DNA from: Fidelibacterota bacterium
GTDB taxonomy: Bacteria; Fidelibacterota; Marinisomatia; SCGC-AAA003-L08; TS1B11
DNA length: 35,240 nucleotides
NCBI GenBank assembly: GCA_022574435.1
Contig: JACZSB010000002.1
Coordinates: 1 to 35,240, forward strand
Reading direction: 5' to 3'
A program made the translations under genes and the position numbers. The stretch's first letter is position 1, and each line of letters begins with the position of its first letter. Below the pieces are notes generated by a model. It was not told the DNA's origin and searched no databases. It saw only the letters and a program-made list of their open reading frames with translations. Below, piece after piece: positions 1,529 through 34,956 of this stretch.

Positions 1529-3151
1529 ATGCTGAGATCATTAACATCAGCAGTAACCGGGTTGAAGAACTTCATGATCCAGTTGGACGTGTTGGGTAAC
1601 AACCTGGCGAATGTAAGGACCCTCGGCTTTAAATCGAGCCGGGTGGCGTTTTCAGAGGCCTCCACCCAGGCCCTGTCGGGTGTATCCCGCGGGTTCGGTG
1701 GCGGCTTCGGTAAGATCAAACAGATCGGACTGGGTGTGACCATCAGTTCCACGGACATGAACTTCGAGCAGGGGGCGCTGGAATTCACCGGCACCGACAC
1801 CGACCTCGCAGTTCGGGGGAAATCCTTCTTCATTGTCAGTGACGGCACGAAGAACCGCTTTACCCGGGCCGGGAACTTCTTCTTCAATGATAATGGGTTC
1901 CTGGTCAATTCCGGCGGATTGGCGGTCCAGGGGTGGAGAGCCAATGCAGATGGTGAAATAGATACTTTTGCCCAGTTGCAGGAGATCTTTATGGACACCA
2001 CCCTCACATCGCCCGCTAAAGAAACCTCGCAGGCGGTGCTGTCCGGCAACCTGGACGCGGGCCTGGGGCCCATCGCGCAAGTGCTGGCCTCCGCTATCGC
2101 CTTCACTGAATCCAACGAAGATGCCCTAGTTGACACGAAACTGATTGACCTGGATCAGACCAGTGATCCCGGCGCGCTCGTGGGGACCGCTATTGAAATC
2201 TCCGGTAATGAGCCTAATGGTGACGTCGTCAGCGCTACTTACCCGGTAACTGCGAGCAGTACTTTGGGCGACCTGATGGCGGCGATCGATGCGGCCTGGG
2301 GCGGCACCGTCACGGTGGCTCTCGAGGACGGTAAAATCGTTCTGACCGATGATGACCCGGGCGAATCCAGCAGCTCCATTTCGTTGGTAGACGGTGATTT
2401 TATCTCCATACCAACGTTCGAGGTAAGAACGGCGGGATTCACAGGTACGGTCACCACGTCCAGGATTGTCTATGACAGTCTGGGCGAAGCCCACAATCTG
2501 ATTCTCACCTTCACCAAAGAAGAGAAAATCGGGGAGTGGACCTGGGTGGCTACCTTTACCGGGGATGAGGAAATCACCGCCGGCAGCACCGGGACCATCG
2601 CATTCAATGATACCGGTAACGTAGTCTCCTTCGGTGTGGACGGAGCGGAAACCGGGATTCTCATCAATCCCAATAACGGAGCCGCCCAGTTCTCGGTGGA
2701 ACTGGACGTCCACGGTAGCCCGGGATTCACCGGGATCACCCAGTACGCCTCCGATCCCACGGTATTCTTCCGTGAGATTAACGGCCGGCCGCTGGGTAGC
2801 CTGTTACGGTTTACCATCGATACCACCGGAATCATAACCGGGATATTCTCCAACGAGGAGAACTTGACTCTGGCCCAGATCGCACTGGCGGAGTTCCCCA
2901 ACCCGGTGGGATTGCTGCGGGCGGAGAATGGATTGTTCGACACGGCTTCCAGTTCGGGTAACCCGATCATTGGAAGGGCCGGCGAGCAGTTCACGTCGAG
3001 CATCATTTCCGGATCGGTGGAAACGTCTAATGTGGATCTGGTGAGACAGTTCACTGATATGATCGTCACTCAGCGCGGCTTCCAAGCCAATGCGCGGGTA
3101 GTGTCGACCGCTGATCAGATCCTGGAAGAAACCATGAGGTTGAAGCGATAG
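1529..3151 (+). CDS. flgE: Flagellar hook protein FlgE
   Basis: FlgE forms the curved universal joint between rod and filament. The N-terminal rod-type motif (LDVLGNNLANVRTLGFKSSR, residues 19-38) and the C-terminal SNVDLVRQFTDMIVTQRGFQ helix (about residues 492-511) are the two halves of the shared D0/D1 core. Between them are FlgE D2-type strands and, at about residues 204-296, an inserted segment resembling the flagellin hook-IN module (STLGDLMAAIDAAW, then EDGKIVLTDDD). At 540 aa it is longer than the enterobacterial protein (about 400 aa), mostly through this insertion. AAGGGGA precedes the ATG. A motA gene follows rather than flbD or swrD, which often occupy that place. Confidence 0.96.
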   Translation: MLRSLTSAVTGLKNFMIQLDVLGNNLANVRTLGFKSSRVAFSEASTQALSGVSRGFGGGFGKIKQIGLGVTISSTDMNFEQGALEFTGTDTDLAVRGKSFFIVSDGTKNRFTRAGNFFFNDNGFLVNSGGLAVQGWRANADGEIDTFAQLQEIFMDTTLTSPAKETSQAVLSGNLDAGLGPIAQVLASAIAFTESNEDALVDTKLIDLDQTSDPGALVGTAIEISGNEPNGDVVSATYPVTASSTLGDLMAAIDAAWGGTVTVALEDGKIVLTDDDPGESSSSISLVDGDFISIPTFEVRTAGFTGTVTTSRIVYDSLGEAHNLILTFTKEEKIGEWTWVATFTGDEEITAGSTGTIAFNDTGNVVSFGVDGAETGILINPNNGAAQFSVELDVHGSPGFTGITQYASDPTVFFREINGRPLGSLLRFTIDTTGIITGIFSNEENLTLAQIALAEFPNPVGLLRAENGLFDTASSSGNPIIGRAGEQFTSSIISGSVETSNVDLVRQFTDMIVTQRGFQANARVVSTADQILEETMRLKR

Positions 3152-3185
3152 TCATCGCTTGACTTAAACAGCCTGAACCGTTGTA

Positions 3186-3212
3186 GGGTCGTCCTGAAAT
3201 CCAGGACGGCCC
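3186..3212 (+). terminator. Strong hairpin between flgE and motA
   Basis: GGGTCGTCCTG (3186-3196) pairs with CAGGACGGCCC (3202-3212), an 11-base-pair stem with one G-U pair and a 5-base loop. There is no T-tract after it, so it is not a textbook intrinsic terminator. It could be a weak or factor-assisted terminator, or a 3'-end stabiliser that lets flgE mRNA accumulate apart from the stator genes. Confidence 0.4.
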
Positions 3213-3243
3213 TCGGCGGATCGGCTTAACAGGGAGATGCGGA

Positions 3244-4032
3244 TTGGATATTGCCACCATAGCGGGTATTATTGCCGGTTTCGGCCTGATCATCGGGACT
3301 ATCCTTACCGGTGAAGGCGCCGGAGCATTCTTGCATCTACCCTCCATGCTGGTGGTGGGGGGCGGAGCCACTGCCGCTACCCTGGTGGCGTTTCCCATGG
3401 AACAGATGATCTCAGCCTTCAAGGTAGCCGCCAAGACCTTCCTGAAACAGGAGAGCACCGATACTGAATCGGTTAAGCAGTTCATCGATTTGAGCCAGAT
3501 GGCCCGCCGTGATGGTATTTTGGCCCTGGATCGGGCTCTCAAAGATGTCGCTAACCCTTTCATGCGCATCGGACTGGAAATGGCGGTGGACGGTACGGAG
3601 CCCGATACCATCAGGGATATCATGGAAACCGAGCTGTCGTCGCTCCAGGAACGGCACAAGGTGGGCCAAGGTATATTCACCACCCTGGGGACCTACGCCC
3701 CGGCGTTCGGGATGATTGGGACCTTGATCGGATTGGTCCAGATGTTGCGCAACCTGGATGATCCCTCTACCATTGGCCCAGCCATGGCCATAGCTTTAAT
3801 TACTACATTTTATGGCGCAATCCTGGGTAATCTGGTGTTCCTGCCCATGGCCGTTAAGCTTAGAAACAAGTCGACCCTGGAAGTCCTGTCGATGAAGATG
3901 ATCATAGAGGGAGTGCTGGCCATCCAGAAAGGGGTCCATCCCAAGAATATTGAACGCAAACTGATGAATTTCATGGCTCCCGCTGCGCGCCCCACCGAGG
4001 GGGAGGAGCCGGCTGGAGGAGGAGGAGGCTAA
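3244..4032 (+). CDS. motA: Flagellar motor stator protein MotA
   Basis: MotA surrounds the MotB dimer in the inner membrane and converts ion flow into rotation. The 262-aa product has the family layout: a first membrane pair (residues 2-20 and about 32-52), a large cytoplasmic loop, and a second pair beginning at TYAPAFGMIGTLIGLVQML (about residues 151-169) and TIGPAMAIALITTFYGAILG. A TTG start is chosen because AGGGAG lies 8 bases upstream and no in-frame ATG precedes the first membrane segment. The C-terminus ends in an unusual acidic and Gly-rich tail (EGEEPAGGGGG). motB follows after one base. Confidence 0.96.
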   Translation: MDIATIAGIIAGFGLIIGTILTGEGAGAFLHLPSMLVVGGGATAATLVAFPMEQMISAFKVAAKTFLKQESTDTESVKQFIDLSQMARRDGILALDRALKDVANPFMRIGLEMAVDGTEPDTIRDIMETELSSLQERHKVGQGIFTTLGTYAPAFGMIGTLIGLVQMLRNLDDPSTIGPAMAIALITTFYGAILGNLVFLPMAVKLRNKSTLEVLSMKMIIEGVLAIQKGVHPKNIERKLMNFMAPAARPTEGEEPAGGGGG

Positions 4033-29406: not shown

Positions 29407-29799
29407 ATGAGTGATTTTAGTTGGCAATATGGCGAACGCTTTAGGCAGATCCGTAAAATGGCAGGGCTTAGCCAGGAGGAATTCGGGGTGGTCCTCAATG
29501 TCAGTCGCCAGACCATCAATGCTTACGAAAACGACCGGCAGCGTCCCACCATGGACATGATGGAAAAGGTCTGTGAGCGACAGAACATCAACCCGTCCTG
29601 GCTGTTGACCGGCGTGGGGGATTCGAAGAAGGGCGCCACCTACACCTATTCTCCGGAAAGTGGCGTGCAGATTTATTCGGTAGGTGATAGTAGTTTCACC
29701 CATGAACAGCACACCTTGATGAACTACATCGCCGAAGATCCGGAAAGGGCTACACAAATGGCCCATCTGCTCTTCAGTGGTGCGCTGAAAGAACTGTAA
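29407..29799 (+). CDS. XRE-family helix-turn-helix regulator
   Basis: This 130-aa protein has an N-terminal HTH_3/Cro-C1 fold at residues about 8-65. LSQEEFGVVLNVSRQTINAY (21-40) contains the two HTH helices, and ENDRQRPTMDMM is the usual end of the recognition module. NPSWLLTGVGDSKKG (about 62-76) is the common junction of many XRE regulators. The C-terminal half (about 55 residues) is acidic and of unknown type, perhaps for dimerisation. Nothing shows its target; it stands alone in a stretch with decayed genes, convergent to the SprA-related gene. Confidence 0.86.
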   Translation: MSDFSWQYGERFRQIRKMAGLSQEEFGVVLNVSRQTINAYENDRQRPTMDMMEKVCERQNINPSWLLTGVGDSKKGATYTYSPESGVQIYSVGDSSFTHEQHTLMNYIAEDPERATQMAHLLFSGALKEL

Positions 29800-29852
29800 C
29801 CGATACGATTCCGCTGATTGAGGCTCTCTTACGCCGCCGGGTGCTGTCTTGA

Positions 29853-29871
29853 ACCCAACTCACCGTTGGGT
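29853..29871. terminator. Hairpin between convergent XRE and SprA-related genes
   Basis: ACCCAAC (29853-29859) pairs perfectly with GTTGGGT (29865-29871) across a 5-base loop. It lies 53 bases after the XRE stop and 24 bases after the end of the opposing gene, the right place for a shared bidirectional terminator. No T-run follows in either direction, so the call is tentative. Confidence 0.4.
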
Positions 29872-29895
29872 ATGATTGCCTCGCGGCTTCGGTGA

Positions 29896-30441
29896 TTATA
29901 CGAACTGGTTTATGAGCGGGGCTTCGGCCGGTGTGCCGGGCGGTGCATTGCCGTTTGTACGGCCTTGCGCTTTGGTTTGTGCGACGCGAGCCCGGGCCTG
30001 CTCAGCCCTGGCTGCCATCTCGGCCCTGGCGGCCTGGGTAGCCACTCGTTGGTCATGTGGGGAAGGATTCCGCGGAGCGAGGGCCGCTCGTTTTATGGCT
30101 TGCATCTTCTGTATATTGGCTCCGGGATTATTAGTGATCGCGCTGGCTTCAATCTGGACCTCGCCGCGTACGGCGTAGCGATTGCCATCGGGACCGACCT
30201 CATACTGGTAGCGGGCGCCACCCCGGGCGTACTGAGCCGCAGCTGCCAAATGCGCGCGCTCATGGTCCCGGACCGCAGCATCCGTCGCTTTTAGCTCGGC
30301 CAATTTCCGCTTCTCCCGGGGGGATAACTCCTGCCTTCCTGCGGCCAAACGGGCTGGGCGCTCAGGACCGTCAGTCGGCCCGGTATGCCGTGATGGCTGG
30401 TCCGTCTGAGTTGCCGGACCAGTTATGGAGGTCAGTTGCAT
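29896..30441 (-). CDS. SprA-related putative metalloprotease (HExxH)
   Basis: The family signature is clear: ELKATDAAVRDHERAHLAAA (about residues 49-68), with HERAH at 60-64 as the HExxH zinc motif, then YEVGPDGNRYAVRGEVQIEA, and a KMQAIKRAALAPRNPSPHDQ helix. These are marks of the SprA-related family (PF12118), annotated as putative metalloproteases although the activity is unproven as far as I know. The first 45 residues are Pro/Thr/Arg-rich and probably disordered, and the last 45 form an Ala/Arg-rich helix. No signal peptide is visible. The ATG is the first in frame. Its leader holds a foldable element (30471-30533). Confidence 0.85.
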   Translation of the reverse strand: MQLTSITGPATQTDQPSRHTGPTDGPERPARLAAGRQELSPREKRKLAELKATDAAVRDHERAHLAAAAQYARGGARYQYEVGPDGNRYAVRGEVQIEASAITNNPGANIQKMQAIKRAALAPRNPSPHDQRVATQAARAEMAARAEQARARVAQTKAQGRTNGNAPPGTPAEAPLINQFV

Positions 30442-30729: not shown

Positions 30730-31005
30730 ATGACATTTGCCACCAGCCCTCTCTGGACGGCCGCTAGGTTTACTCCCCCGCCATCTCAGGCGCCGGCTGA
30801 CCGGCGTGGACGCACTTTCGATTATCCAGGGATGGTCCTGACGGCACGGTGCAATCTGCTCTGTTTATACGGCCTGCCGGAAGACGGCATCCCGTTGGTC
30901 GCGGCCCATAAGTCGCTCCGGACCGATGAGATTCTACCGGTTATAGCGGAGGGCGCCAACTTCTTTGGGAGTGTCCGCAAACGTATGATCCGGCTCGGCG
31001 CCTAG
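30730..31005 (+). pseudogene. moaA: Truncated moaA (GTP 3',8-cyclase) relic
   Basis: The ORF of 91 codons matches only the N-terminus of MoaA: DRRGRTFDYPGMVLTARCNL corresponds to the usual GRxxxYLRISVTDRCN, and SLRTDEILPVIAEGANFFG to LTxEEIxRLxxxFAxLG. The radical-SAM cluster motif CxxxCxxC reads CNLLCLYG, with the third Cys (TGC) changed to Gly (GGC). It ends VRKRMIRLGA-stop where KxRxTGGEPLxRR should continue, and the next frame positions still show the Arg-Arg. About 240 residues are missing, including the second 4Fe-4S cluster. The moaC-moaB fusion starts 12 bases later. The host must carry moaA elsewhere or make no Moco. Confidence 0.72.
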
Positions 31006-31017
31006 AGGCGGGCGTAG

Positions 31018-31983
31018 ATGGACCGCGACCAACCCGATCGCCAACTGACCCACCTGGATAGCCGGGGCCGCGCGCGCATGGTGGACGTCAGTGACAAGCC
31101 CGTGACCAGCCGGATAGCGGAGGCCAGCGGGTTCATCAGCCTGCAACCGGAAACCTTGGAGGCCCTTTATTCGGGGCAGGTGCCCAAAGGCGACGTGTTG
31201 AGCACGGCCCGACTGGCGGGCGTGGCGGCCGCCAAACAGACTGCTACCCTGATCCCACTGTGCCACCCCCTGAACTTGACCTGGGTGGACCTGGAGTTCA
31301 CGGCCCGCGATGACGGAATCGCCATCGGTTGCACCGTCAAGGCCCGCGAGGTGACCGGCCTGGAAATGGAGGCGTTGACCGCCGTCTCGGTGGCTGCTCT
31401 GACCATTTATGACATGTGCAAGGCTATCGACCGTAGTATGCGGATCGGTGATATCCGCCTGGTGCGCAAGGAAGGGGGGAAATCATCGCATCAGCCGGCC
31501 TACCGTCCCCGGACGGCCGTGCTAGTCGTGTCCGATTCCGCCGCCTCCGGTGAGCGCCAGGACCGTTCCGGGGCCCTCCTGAGGGAGGGCTTTCTGCTGG
31601 CAGGTTGCCAGGTGGACCCCGTGTTGGTGGTACCAGACGAGCCTGACCAACTGTTAGCCGCCGCCCGGAAATTCCTCGATAAAGGTATTGAACTGCTGAT
31701 TACCACCGGAGGCACCGGACTGGGTCCCCGGGATATTACTATTCCCACCCTGGAGCAGCTGCTGGACGACCGCTTGCCGGGGGTGGAGCAGGCCCTGCAT
31801 GCCGTGGGGCGCACCCAAACCCCCCTGGCCATGCTCTCCAAACTGGCGGTTGGGACAGCCGGTAAGGGGATCATCGTTTCTCTTCCGGGCAGCTCGGCCG
31901 CCTGCCGGGACGCTTTGACGGTACTGATCCCGGCCATTTTCCACGCCTTTGAGGTGCAAAAAGGCGCCGGGCACGGCGATTAG
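31018..31983 (+). CDS. moaCB: Bifunctional MoaC/MoaB molybdenum-cofactor protein
   Basis: Two Moco enzymes are fused. Residues 1-155 are MoaC, which with MoaA makes cyclic pyranopterin monophosphate: [20 protein letters not shown], then [21 protein letters not shown] and [20 protein letters not shown] are all intact. Residues about 163-321 are MoaB/MogA, which adenylylates molybdopterin: [38 protein letters not shown], and the closing [21 protein letters not shown] Lys-rich linker (KEGGKSSHQ) joins them. The fusion is known in several phyla. The start follows the moaA relic and gives the full MoaC N-terminus. Confidence 0.95.
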
Positions 31984-32001: not shown

Positions 32002-32742
32002 ATGACTACTTTCCTGCTGCCCCTGATCTTCATGGTGGTGGCCCTGGTCTATTCCGCGGTGGGGCTGGGTGGAGGCTCCACTTACGTGGCCATATTGGCG
32101 CTCACCGGTATGGACCACCAACAACTGCCCACCATTTCCCTGTCGCTCAACCTGGTGGTCACCAGCGTGGGAATCTACAATTTCCGCCGCCACGACCACA
32201 TCCGCTTCGACCTGATCTGGCCGTTCCTGATCACCTCGCTACCTATGGCTTATTTGGGCGGATCGCTGCAGTTGTCCCGGCTAACTTTCCTATGGCTGCT
32301 ATTTATTACGCTGCTGTTCGTGGCGGTGCGCATTTATCTTTGGCGCGAAGTCACCTTTAACTTGCACCTCAATCATCTCGGGCGCCGGGCAACCATGCTG
32401 GCCTCGGGCGCTGCGCTGGGATTTGTAGCCGGTACAGTGGGTATCGGCGGCGGTATCCTGCTGGTACCCCTCATGATTATGTTAAGTTTGGCCAGGGAGC
32501 AGGAGGCGGCTGGGGCCGGGGCGGTTTTTGTATGGGTTAACTCGGCCATGGGACTGATTGCCCGTTTCAACCGGCAAGCGTTTGATCCTGACCTGATTGT
32601 GCCGCTGGTAGTGGCCGTAATTGTGGGCGCCGGGATCGGCTCGTACCTGGGCGCCGCCCGGCTCAAGCCCCGGTCGGTGCAACTAATTATGGGGGTAGTG
32701 ATCCTGATGGCCTTGGTGTCAATTGGGGGGCAACTGCTATGA
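32002..32742 (+). CDS. TauE/SafE-family membrane permease
   Basis: This 246-aa protein is almost entirely membrane helices (about eight) with an internal duplication. The two half-repeats carry the family glycine motifs VYSAVGLGGGSTYVAILALT (about residues 16-35) and FVAGTVGIGGGILLVPLMI (about 140-158). The family moves sulfite, sulfoacetate or other small organosulfur anions, and the substrate is not readable from sequence. It lies inside the Moco operon, with a four-base overlap into moeA, so a link to sulfur oxyanions handled by a molybdoenzyme is possible but unproven. Confidence 0.87.
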   Translation: MTTFLLPLIFMVVALVYSAVGLGGGSTYVAILALTGMDHQQLPTISLSLNLVVTSVGIYNFRRHDHIRFDLIWPFLITSLPMAYLGGSLQLSRLTFLWLLFITLLFVAVRIYLWREVTFNLHLNHLGRRATMLASGAALGFVAGTVGIGGGILLVPLMIMLSLAREQEAAGAGAVFVWVNSAMGLIARFNRQAFDPDLIVPLVVAVIVGAGIGSYLGAARLKPRSVQLIMGVVILMALVSIGGQLL

Positions 32743-33968
32743 AGAGCGTCCCGGAAGCCCGGAAAATCGTGGCGGCCGCCGTCCCCGTTCCAACGTCGGA
32801 ACTGGTCCCCCTGGCCGAATTGACCGGCCGGGTGCTGGCCGAGCCTATATTGGCCCCCTTTCCCCGGCCCCGGTACACAGATTCCGCCATGGATGGCTTT
32901 GCGGTACGTACCGCCGATCTGGCCCGCGCCGACAGACAAAATCACATCGCTCTACGTTTGGTGGGGGTCACCGCAGCCGGGGCCCGGGAGCCGGGGGTCG
33001 TCGGTCCCGGAGAATGCCGGCAGGTGATGACCGGAGCGGCCATCCCTGAGGGGGCCGATGCCGTGGTCAAAGTGGAGGATACCAGCGGCTTCGAAAAGGA
33101 GCCGGTGCAGGTTTACCATGCTCCCCAGGTTGGAGAAAACATGCGTAAGGCCGGTGAGGAAATCCCAGCTGGGGAGCTGCTACTGAGCCCGGGTGCTCGA
33201 TTTGGGCCTGGTGAGTTGGGCATCCTGGCGGGCTGCGGTTTGGATACAGCGTCTGTTTATCTCCGGCCCCCGGTAGCCCTGATCACCACGGGTAACGAAC
33301 TGGTCCGGCCGGGAGAACCCTTATCTCCGGGGATGATATATAATTCCAATCTACCGGTGCTGCGGACCCTGGCGGAGCTGGCCGGGGCTACTATAATCTC
33401 GGCTGAGACCGTTCCTGATGACCAGCAGGCTCAGCGGGACAGTGTCGCCCAAGCGTTGGAACAGGCTAAATTGGTGGTGGTTAGCGGTGGTGTATCCATG
33501 GGGCGCTTCGATCATGTTCGGGAAGTTTTACGGTCACAGGGCATCCGGGAGCGGTTCTGGCGGGTGGCTCAGAAGCCGGGCAAACCGCTCTACTTCGGTA
33601 CCGGCCCTGACACCCTGGTGTTCGGTTTACCGGGGAACCCGGTGTCGGCATTTATCTGCTTCATGGAGTTCATTTGGCCCGCGCTGGAGAGCCTCCAGGG
33701 TTTAGCTCCCAGGCCCCAACTGCGAGGGACATTATCAGCCCCCTATCCCCGGGAGCGGAAGCTCTGGCGCTTCCTGCTCGGGGAGGCCTGGGTGCAGGTT
33801 GGCCGTCTAATGGTGCGGCCCTCCGGGAAGCGCGGCTCTCACATGTTCACCACCACCCTGAAGGCCAATTGCATCCTGTCAGCATCACCAGGTGAAGGCC
33901 CGCTTGAGGAAGGGGCGGAAATCTCCGTCCGGTTGCTGCCCTGGACTATGTTGCCGGGGGAAGCATGA
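32739..33968 (+). CDS. moeA: Molybdopterin molybdenumtransferase MoeA
   Basis: MoeA inserts molybdate into adenylylated molybdopterin. The 409-aa product has the family blocks in order: YTDSAMDGFAVRTADL (about residues 47-62), MTGAAIPEGADAVVKVEDT, GENMRKAGEE, TTGNELVRPGE, VVSGGVSMGRFDHVREVL with its catalytic acidic residue, QKPGKPLYFG, and GLPGNPVSAFICF. Nothing is missing and the length is standard. ATGA couples it to the permease, and the same arrangement couples it to moaD. It works after the MoaB domain of the upstream fusion. Confidence 0.97.
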   Translation: MKSVPEARKIVAAAVPVPTSELVPLAELTGRVLAEPILAPFPRPRYTDSAMDGFAVRTADLARADRQNHIALRLVGVTAAGAREPGVVGPGECRQVMTGAAIPEGADAVVKVEDTSGFEKEPVQVYHAPQVGENMRKAGEEIPAGELLLSPGARFGPGELGILAGCGLDTASVYLRPPVALITTGNELVRPGEPLSPGMIYNSNLPVLRTLAELAGATIISAETVPDDQQAQRDSVAQALEQAKLVVVSGGVSMGRFDHVREVLRSQGIRERFWRVAQKPGKPLYFGTGPDTLVFGLPGNPVSAFICFMEFIWPALESLQGLAPRPQLRGTLSAPYPRERKLWRFLLGEAWVQVGRLMVRPSGKRGSHMFTTTLKANCILSASPGEGPLEEGAEISVRLLPWTMLPGEA

Positions 33969-34222
33969 CCGGGCCGGAGGTTAAAATCACCGTGCTACTT
34001 TTTTCCCACCTGCGGCACGCACTGGGCAGCGGGAAGTTGACCATCACCTTGGCAACCGGTTCCACCGCCGCCGACCTGGTAGGCCATATCCGGGAAATGC
34101 TTGAGGAGCGCCTGGCCGGAATGCCCATGCGGGTGGCCGTTAATGGGCAGTTTGCCACCGATGATACCATCCTCCAGGCCGGTGACGAGGTAGCCCTGAT
34201 TCCACCCGTGCAGGGGGGTTGA
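33965..34222 (+). CDS. moaD: Molybdopterin synthase small subunit MoaD
   Basis: MoaD is a ubiquitin-fold sulfur carrier; its C-terminal Gly-Gly is thiocarboxylated and gives sulfur to cyclic pyranopterin monophosphate. The 85-aa product ends PPVQGG as required, preceded by DEVALIPPV, the standard tail. The N-terminal strand ITVLLFSHLRHALG fits the family. It overlaps moeA and moaE by four bases each. The activating enzyme (MoeB) and the sulfur source are not in this window. Confidence 0.95.
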   Translation: MTGPEVKITVLLFSHLRHALGSGKLTITLATGSTAADLVGHIREMLEERLAGMPMRVAVNGQFATDDTILQAGDEVALIPPVQGG

Positions 34223-34224
34223 AG

Positions 34225-34641
34225 ATGGTGATGACCGAACTGGTGGAAGGACCGCTGCCGCAATTGGCGGAAGCTCAGGGGCTGACCGAAACAGGCGCAG
34301 AAGTAATTTTCCATGGCCGGGTGCGGGATCGGGAGCAGGGCCGGGAGATTGTGGCCCTGTATTACGAGGCTTATGCCTCCCTGGCCGACCACGAGCTGCG
34401 CGCCATCGGTGAGGAAACGGCCAGCCGCTATTCCCTTCTGGACCTTACCTGCCATCATCGGATAGGGGAGGTGCCGGTGGGGGCAGTCTCATTGCGGGTG
34501 GTGGCCCTGGCCCGGCATCGGGAAGCTGCCCTGGAGGCGGTGACCTGGATGGTGGATCAATTGAAGCGCCGGGTGCCGATCTGGAAGTGGGGCGTGCTAT
34601 CTTCCGGTGAGCGGTTCCCTTCAGGACTGGCGACAAAATGA
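34225..34641 (+). CDS. moaE: Molybdopterin synthase large subunit MoaE
   Basis: MoaE pairs with MoaD to form molybdopterin synthase. The product (138 aa) has GAEVIFHGRVRDREQGREIV (about residues 24-43), then YEAYASLADHELRAI, HHRIGEVPVGAVSLRVVALA, and the active-site lysines in DQLKRRVPIWKWG. The ATG at 34225 is preferred over a TTG four bases before the moaD end (34219), because AGGGGGG would then be well spaced; the choice adds or drops only two residues. It is the last gene of the Moco operon. Confidence 0.95.
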   Translation: MVMTELVEGPLPQLAEAQGLTETGAEVIFHGRVRDREQGREIVALYYEAYASLADHELRAIGEETASRYSLLDLTCHHRIGEVPVGAVSLRVVALARHREAALEAVTWMVDQLKRRVPIWKWGVLSSGERFPSGLATK

Positions 34642-34800
34642 TTTGCTCACGCAACTCATCGGCCATCGTAGATAATGCATGCACCAGGAGTTTCCCCGAA
34701 AATTGAATACGTGAGCCTGTAGTGCAATAATCTATTGGGAATCGTATATAATGACAAGTGGAAGAAACTGTTATTCAATAAGGGATCCCTTGGCCAGGGG
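34642..34800. other. Non-coding region after moaE
   Basis: No convincing ORF lies here on either strand. The DNA between 34715 and 34785 is AT-rich (TAATCTATTG, TATATAATGA, TTATTCAATA). TATATAATG near 34744 resembles a -10 element, but no plus-strand gene follows. I see no stem with a T-run that would terminate the Moco operon. Confidence 0.3.
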
Positions 34801-34873
34801 AACCTCACCCCCGTCCTGCGGCCGCCCCCTCTCCTTAAGGAGAGGGGCGACACGAAGTGTCTGGGGTGAGGTT
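34801..34873. repeat. Palindromic intergenic repeat with nested hairpins
   Basis: A 73-base unit is closed by an 11-base perfect inverted repeat, AACCTCACCCC (34801-34811) and GGGGTGAGGTT (34863-34873). Inside are a perfect 22-base palindrome centred on TTAA (34826-34847) and a small hairpin, GACAC-GAA-GTGTC (34849-34861). Such three-arm units are typical of dispersed REP/MITE-like repeats in intergenic DNA. No second copy is visible in this window. It lies between the Moco operon and a convergent outer-membrane gene. Confidence 0.7.
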
Positions 34874-34956
34874 AAACGGAACGTAATCCCACGATTAGCC
34901 ATTAGTGGTAGAGAGGTTTAATATTTCGGGGGAACTCCTGAAAAGCTTCCGGCCGA

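Follow-up and report, generated by a model that had tools for sequence, protein, structure and literature searches.

The locus described here raises the question of how a bacterium can make Moco when the first gene of its Moco operon is broken. The operon lies near the end of a 35,240-nt stretch of a Fidelibacterota contig (JACZSB010000002.1, positions 1 to 35,240, all of which was analysed and is called the window below), and it is headed by a short ORF that an earlier note on this DNA had read as what is left of moaA. Three matters have to be settled: what this ORF is, where the cell might obtain MoaA instead, and whether the same exchange is seen in related genomes.

The moaA remnant and its operon

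The ORF at 30730..31005 (+) encodes 91 aa and retains approximately 55 conserved N-terminal residues of MoaA. In a profile search it matched TIGR02666 at positions 3-54 (22.4 bits, E 8.8e-5), and against a profile built from 22 relatives it scored 41.6 bits over positions 3-57 of 325, with residues 24-78 being the part that aligns to the start of MoaA. The match stops at 57/325, and both the TIM-barrel core with its GGEP motif and the C-terminal three-Cys Fe-S cluster are absent. The earlier reading of a broken moaA at the head of the operon is thus upheld, as is its assignment to the N-terminal end of the protein, but what survives is about a sixth of MoaA and not the first quarter. The loss of one radical-SAM Cys that the earlier note described is also borne out. 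The CxxxCxxC motif is represented by CNLLCLYG (C41-NLL-C45-LY-G48), in which the third Cys is replaced by Gly (codon GGC at 30871), so that the motif is no longer matched. Among the 15 strongly conserved N-terminal positions, 10 are kept and five are substituted; the remnant has drifted through substitutions besides being cut. Its frame is free of internal stops, but 7% of mono-shuffled versions of this DNA are open as well, which makes the lack of stops weak evidence in itself; that the remnant is real follows from its homology to MoaA. Taken jointly with the transfer and displacement described below, the ORF is very probably a pseudogene of the native operon moaA.

The stop codon of the remnant (31003-31005) lies 12 bases upstream of the moaC-moaB ATG at 31018, as the earlier note had stated. 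The last residues before this stop may be the original C-terminal tail of MoaA (30970..31005, +), as VRKRMIRLGA-stop resembles the consensus HRESMTQIGG-stop. This likeness is suggestive only: no more than about 0.2% of the pre-stop peptides in the window score equally well against the MoaA tail, but full-sensitivity HMMER found no second (C-terminal) domain in the remnant, and pairwise scores of its end do not separate the C-terminal-tail reading from an N-side one.

All later genes of the operon are intact by their Pfam matches, as had been claimed, and all lie on the + strand. They comprise a moaC-moaB fusion (31018..31983; PF01967 186 bits, PF00994 100 bits), a TauE/SafE-like permease gene (32002..32742), moeA (32739..33968), moaD of the ThiS family (33965..34222) and moaE (34219..34641). 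The permease gene is a constant member of the Moco operon in the relatives examined and may serve in sulfur or oxyanion transport. Upstream of the remnant are a gene for an XRE-type regulator (29407..29799, +), which anchors the orthology of the locus, and a divergent SprA-related gene (29896..30441, -), both of which are also present in the relatives G002, G005 and G007. In G002 and G007 a gene of 317-319 aa lies between these two neighbours (315 aa in G005), and its absence from the window (29799-29896) indicates that the locus has lost other DNA too. No Moco riboswitch or other Rfam RNA was found upstream of the operon. On its other side, 3' of moaE, a palindromic element at 34790-34880 has about 19 matches in the genome at 77-100% identity and appears to be a repeat of the REP or MITE kind.

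A full-length moaA and the CO dehydrogenase cluster

The genome to which the window belongs (G000) is a fragmented metagenome bin of 474 contigs, 87% complete. A second moaA, one of the ways out that the earlier note had offered, is present in it: contig C6 encodes a full-length MoaA of 351 aa at 2642-3631, which scores 340.8 bits against TIGR02666, above the curated cut-off of 284.05. This protein has CQLRCIYC, CGNCDRIRITADGCIRNC and a C-terminal GG, and both Cys motifs are present. Contig C6 and contig C412, the latter carrying coxM, coxS, coxL and coxG, both align at 94-97% to a single contig (C90) of the sister genome G001, on which the gene order is moaA, iscS, a membrane protein gene, an xdhC-like gene, coxG, coxL, coxS and a coxM cut by the contig border. 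Through this sister contig, the moaA on C6 appears to be linked to an aerobic CO dehydrogenase (CODH) cluster. The coxL on C412 scores 1234 bits against TIGR02416 (cut-off 991). The CoxL protein of G001, which is nearly identical to that of G000, contains AYRCSFR, which we take to be the active-site motif of the form I aerobic CO dehydrogenase large subunit.

Related loci and transfer of the CODH-linked moaA

The same locus was compared in sister genomes, as the earlier note had proposed. In G002 and G005, the neighbourhood consists of the XRE regulator, the SprA-related gene, an intact moaA, moaCB, TauE, moeA, moaD and moaE, and the searches found no second full moaA in either genome. Both genomes also have CODH clusters, and no moaA was found in the stretches of these clusters that were read, the G005 contig ending inside coxL. 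G007, a congener of G002, shares this neighbourhood, here on a 345 kb contig, but its operon moaA encodes only 151 aa, in which profile positions 1-62 are joined in frame to 284-325. The core is gone from this protein, all three N-terminal Cys are kept, and it ends in SSMTEIGG. The second moaA of G007 is full-length and lies in a CODH cluster arranged like those of G000 and G001. Gain of the linked moaA, and not of CODH alone, predicts loss of the operon moaA. The corresponding remnant region of G001 falls outside its assembly, where the contig ends inside moaCB. In L070, a Candidatus Neomarinimicrobiota bacterium and the nearest of the named records in the genome collection that match in full (moaCB 52%), a full moaA is adjacent.

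The two remnants are 52% and 41% identical to the operon-type MoaA of G002 and 44% and 37% identical to the detached copies; being slightly nearer the former, they are not partial duplicates of the latter. The G007 remnant must be younger than the split between G007 and G002 and thus arose independently of that in G000, unless G002 regained its copy.

The detached copies and the operons have different histories. A tree of concatenated operon proteins groups G002 with G007 (support 100/100), and one of concatenated cox-cluster proteins groups G000 with G007 apart from the rest (support 100/100). Likewise, G007 and G000 share 57% identity in moaCB and 51% in moeA, as against 83-93% in coxL, coxS, coxM, coxG, iscS and moaA. 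These conflicting trees and identities indicate that the CODH cluster moved horizontally between lineages together with its moaA. In G004, where the Moco operon and the cox cluster are adjacent, the operon moaA is the gene most closely related to the detached copies. An alternative possibility is that the detached moaA arose by duplication within the lineage, and it does fall among family members in the MoaA tree. This is very unlikely, as the detached copy is 83-86% identical to that of G007, compared with approximately 48-57% for operon genes, and the operon and the linked cox genes give conflicting trees, each at 100/100.

The replacement copy thus has a history that differs from that of the host genes, as the two fully supported trees and the identities attest, and the native copy has decayed in a syntenic locus where sister genomes keep it intact. 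The explanation in which we place high confidence is xenologous displacement of the operon moaA by the CODH-linked copy, followed by decay. A CODH cluster carrying its own moaA would have entered the lineage from a related bacterium by horizontal transfer, and the newcomer MoaA would supply GTP 3',8-cyclase activity cell-wide, presumably feeding MoaC in trans. With this activity available, the operon moaA would no longer have been needed; an internal deletion would have taken out its catalytic core, and substitutions would then have accumulated. This deletion would have been confined within moaA, sparing the sequences on which expression of the other operon genes depends, namely the initiation region upstream and the moaA 3' end that adjoins the moaC ribosome-binding site.

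A third case is found in G049, from another family of the class, in which moaA is present upstream of moaCB only as pieces, with about 21 conserved N-terminal residues followed directly by about 30 C-terminal residues in another frame. Its near-identical sister G095 (95% at the locus) has an intact moaA, and the flanking matches at the G049 deletion junction overlap by 8 bases, as expected for a deletion between short repeats. The full moaA of G049 lies 27 kb from these pieces, downstream of genes resembling those for DMSO-reductase type II alpha and beta subunits, and its identity of only 65% to the operon copy of G095 indicates that it is also foreign. The moaA swap is separate in at least two related lineages besides that of the window and has taken place at least three times in the class. 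Across the 171 genomes of the class that were surveyed, 70 contain a full moaA and none contains two, and in 64 a full or near-full moaA lies no more than 1.3 kb upstream of moaCB. A detached full moaA combined with visible DNA upstream of moaCB occurs in G000, G007 and G049, and all three have a remnant there. Among the other detached cases, the loci of G001, G062 and G065 are cut off at or close to contig borders, and G009 is without a moaCB match.

In G031 and G127, which have moaCB without an adjacent moaA, no moaA pieces were found upstream, so that neither genome is informative, and G136 is cut off at or close to a contig border. A record labelled Pelodictyon (L075), also with moaCB and without moaA, was rejected as a further case, as its other neighbours differ and no remnant is present there. 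Three further irregularities were encountered in the class. In G163 (C221:21521-23400; L171 2022-3316), moaA is broken after residue 286 and roughly its last 22 residues are found about 370 bases further on, reflecting either an insertion or an assembly problem. The moaCB frame of G013 (C55:44023-44946; L048) contains internal TAA codons and may be a pseudogene, two genes or an error. G107 has, in addition to a full operon copy, a second moaA-like stretch with three internal stops (C101:9325-9933; L175), another decayed moaA.

Surviving gene ends and significance

Why these particular parts of moaA persist may be explained by signals that act in cis. At 31000..31017 (+), the end of the remnant, its stop codon and the moaC ribosome-binding site fall together (TAGAGGCGG), with the site overlapping the stop and an anti-SD duplex of -6.4 kcal/mol. 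In 7/14 intact operons, the moaC ribosome-binding site is formed by the codons of the invariant C-terminal Gly-Gly of MoaA, with duplex energies of -9 to -10.5, and in these operons moaA stops no more than a few bases from the start of moaC. The G007 remnant keeps this Gly-Gly/ribosome-binding-site arrangement, and its stop overlaps the moaC start. Removal of these ends would probably damage downstream expression, which could account for which ends of moaA survived. This account does not cover the genus of G049, in which the moaC ribosome-binding site is far from moaA.

A stronger version, in which core-deleted remnants are selected as translated leaders and loss of moaA repeatedly leaves behind a cis-acting mini-gene controlling moaC translation, is quite unlikely. 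The related proposal that the remnant is a retained short gene, either a translated leader coupling moaC translation or a mini-MoaA peptide with a role of its own, has a very low probability as well. It draws on the open frames kept in both G000 and G007, on the in-frame run of the latter from N-terminus to C-terminal GG with a stop at the moaC start, and on the overlap of the moaC ribosome-binding site with the remnant end. However, the G000 remnant is without a cluster Cys and other conserved residues, the surviving ends in G049 are in different frames, and an open frame of such length is not rare in shuffled DNA.

Less probable again is that an assembly or sequencing error hides an intact operon moaA, as the earlier note had considered. 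The bin is indeed fragmented, but a simple assembly deletion would not produce substitutions at five of 15 conserved positions, the analogous deletion in G007 lies on a 345 kb contig, and the full moaA is elsewhere in the same bin. The remaining suggestion of the earlier note, that the host is losing Moco synthesis or importing a precursor, is extremely unlikely even with the first-step gene of the operon dead, for the later genes are intact and a search of the rest of the genome found, besides the moaA on C6, several molybdoenzymes (CODH, xanthine-oxidase-family proteins and a molybdopterin oxidoreductase), which together indicate that Moco synthesis has been neither lost nor obviously replaced by import of a precursor. 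The bin contains all the genes for the first steps of Moco synthesis, and its molybdoenzymes imply that this synthesis is needed.

Displacement of the operon moaA by the CODH-linked copy is a recurrent example of an established process, and there is precedent for molybdoenzyme islands that carry a moaA of their own (PMC4623255). As in other cases of xenologous (orthologous) gene displacement, an ortholog gained by horizontal transfer assumes the function and the native gene degenerates, and in the present case the native operon still shows the remnant. Unlike in the usual case, the newcomer sits in the cluster of an enzyme that uses its product, and a single class provides at least three examples of the exchange. 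The genomic island for perchlorate reduction similarly is a transferred molybdoenzyme island that carries a moaA homolog, one that matters for the enzyme, although the perchlorate-reducing isolates all keep another moaA elsewhere in the genome (PMC4623255); the native gene is thus kept there and destroyed here, and the enzyme and phylum are different. In Mycobacterium tuberculosis, the moaA1-D1 island places horizontally acquired Moco genes beside native homologs, and the paralogs are kept with different regulation (PMC5720804), whereas a single full moaA is left here. No report of such a moaA displacement was found in the literature searched.

Taken together, these observations mean that the first step of cofactor synthesis, which is oxygen-sensitive, can pass to another gene copy when the cluster of a cofactor-using enzyme brings one with it. 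The absence of any relative with two full moaA genes, in all 171 genomes, suggests that the redundancy is resolved quickly. An operon may look broken while the pathway is complete, and genomes like these would be misjudged as lacking Moco synthesis if pathways were predicted from one operon at a time.
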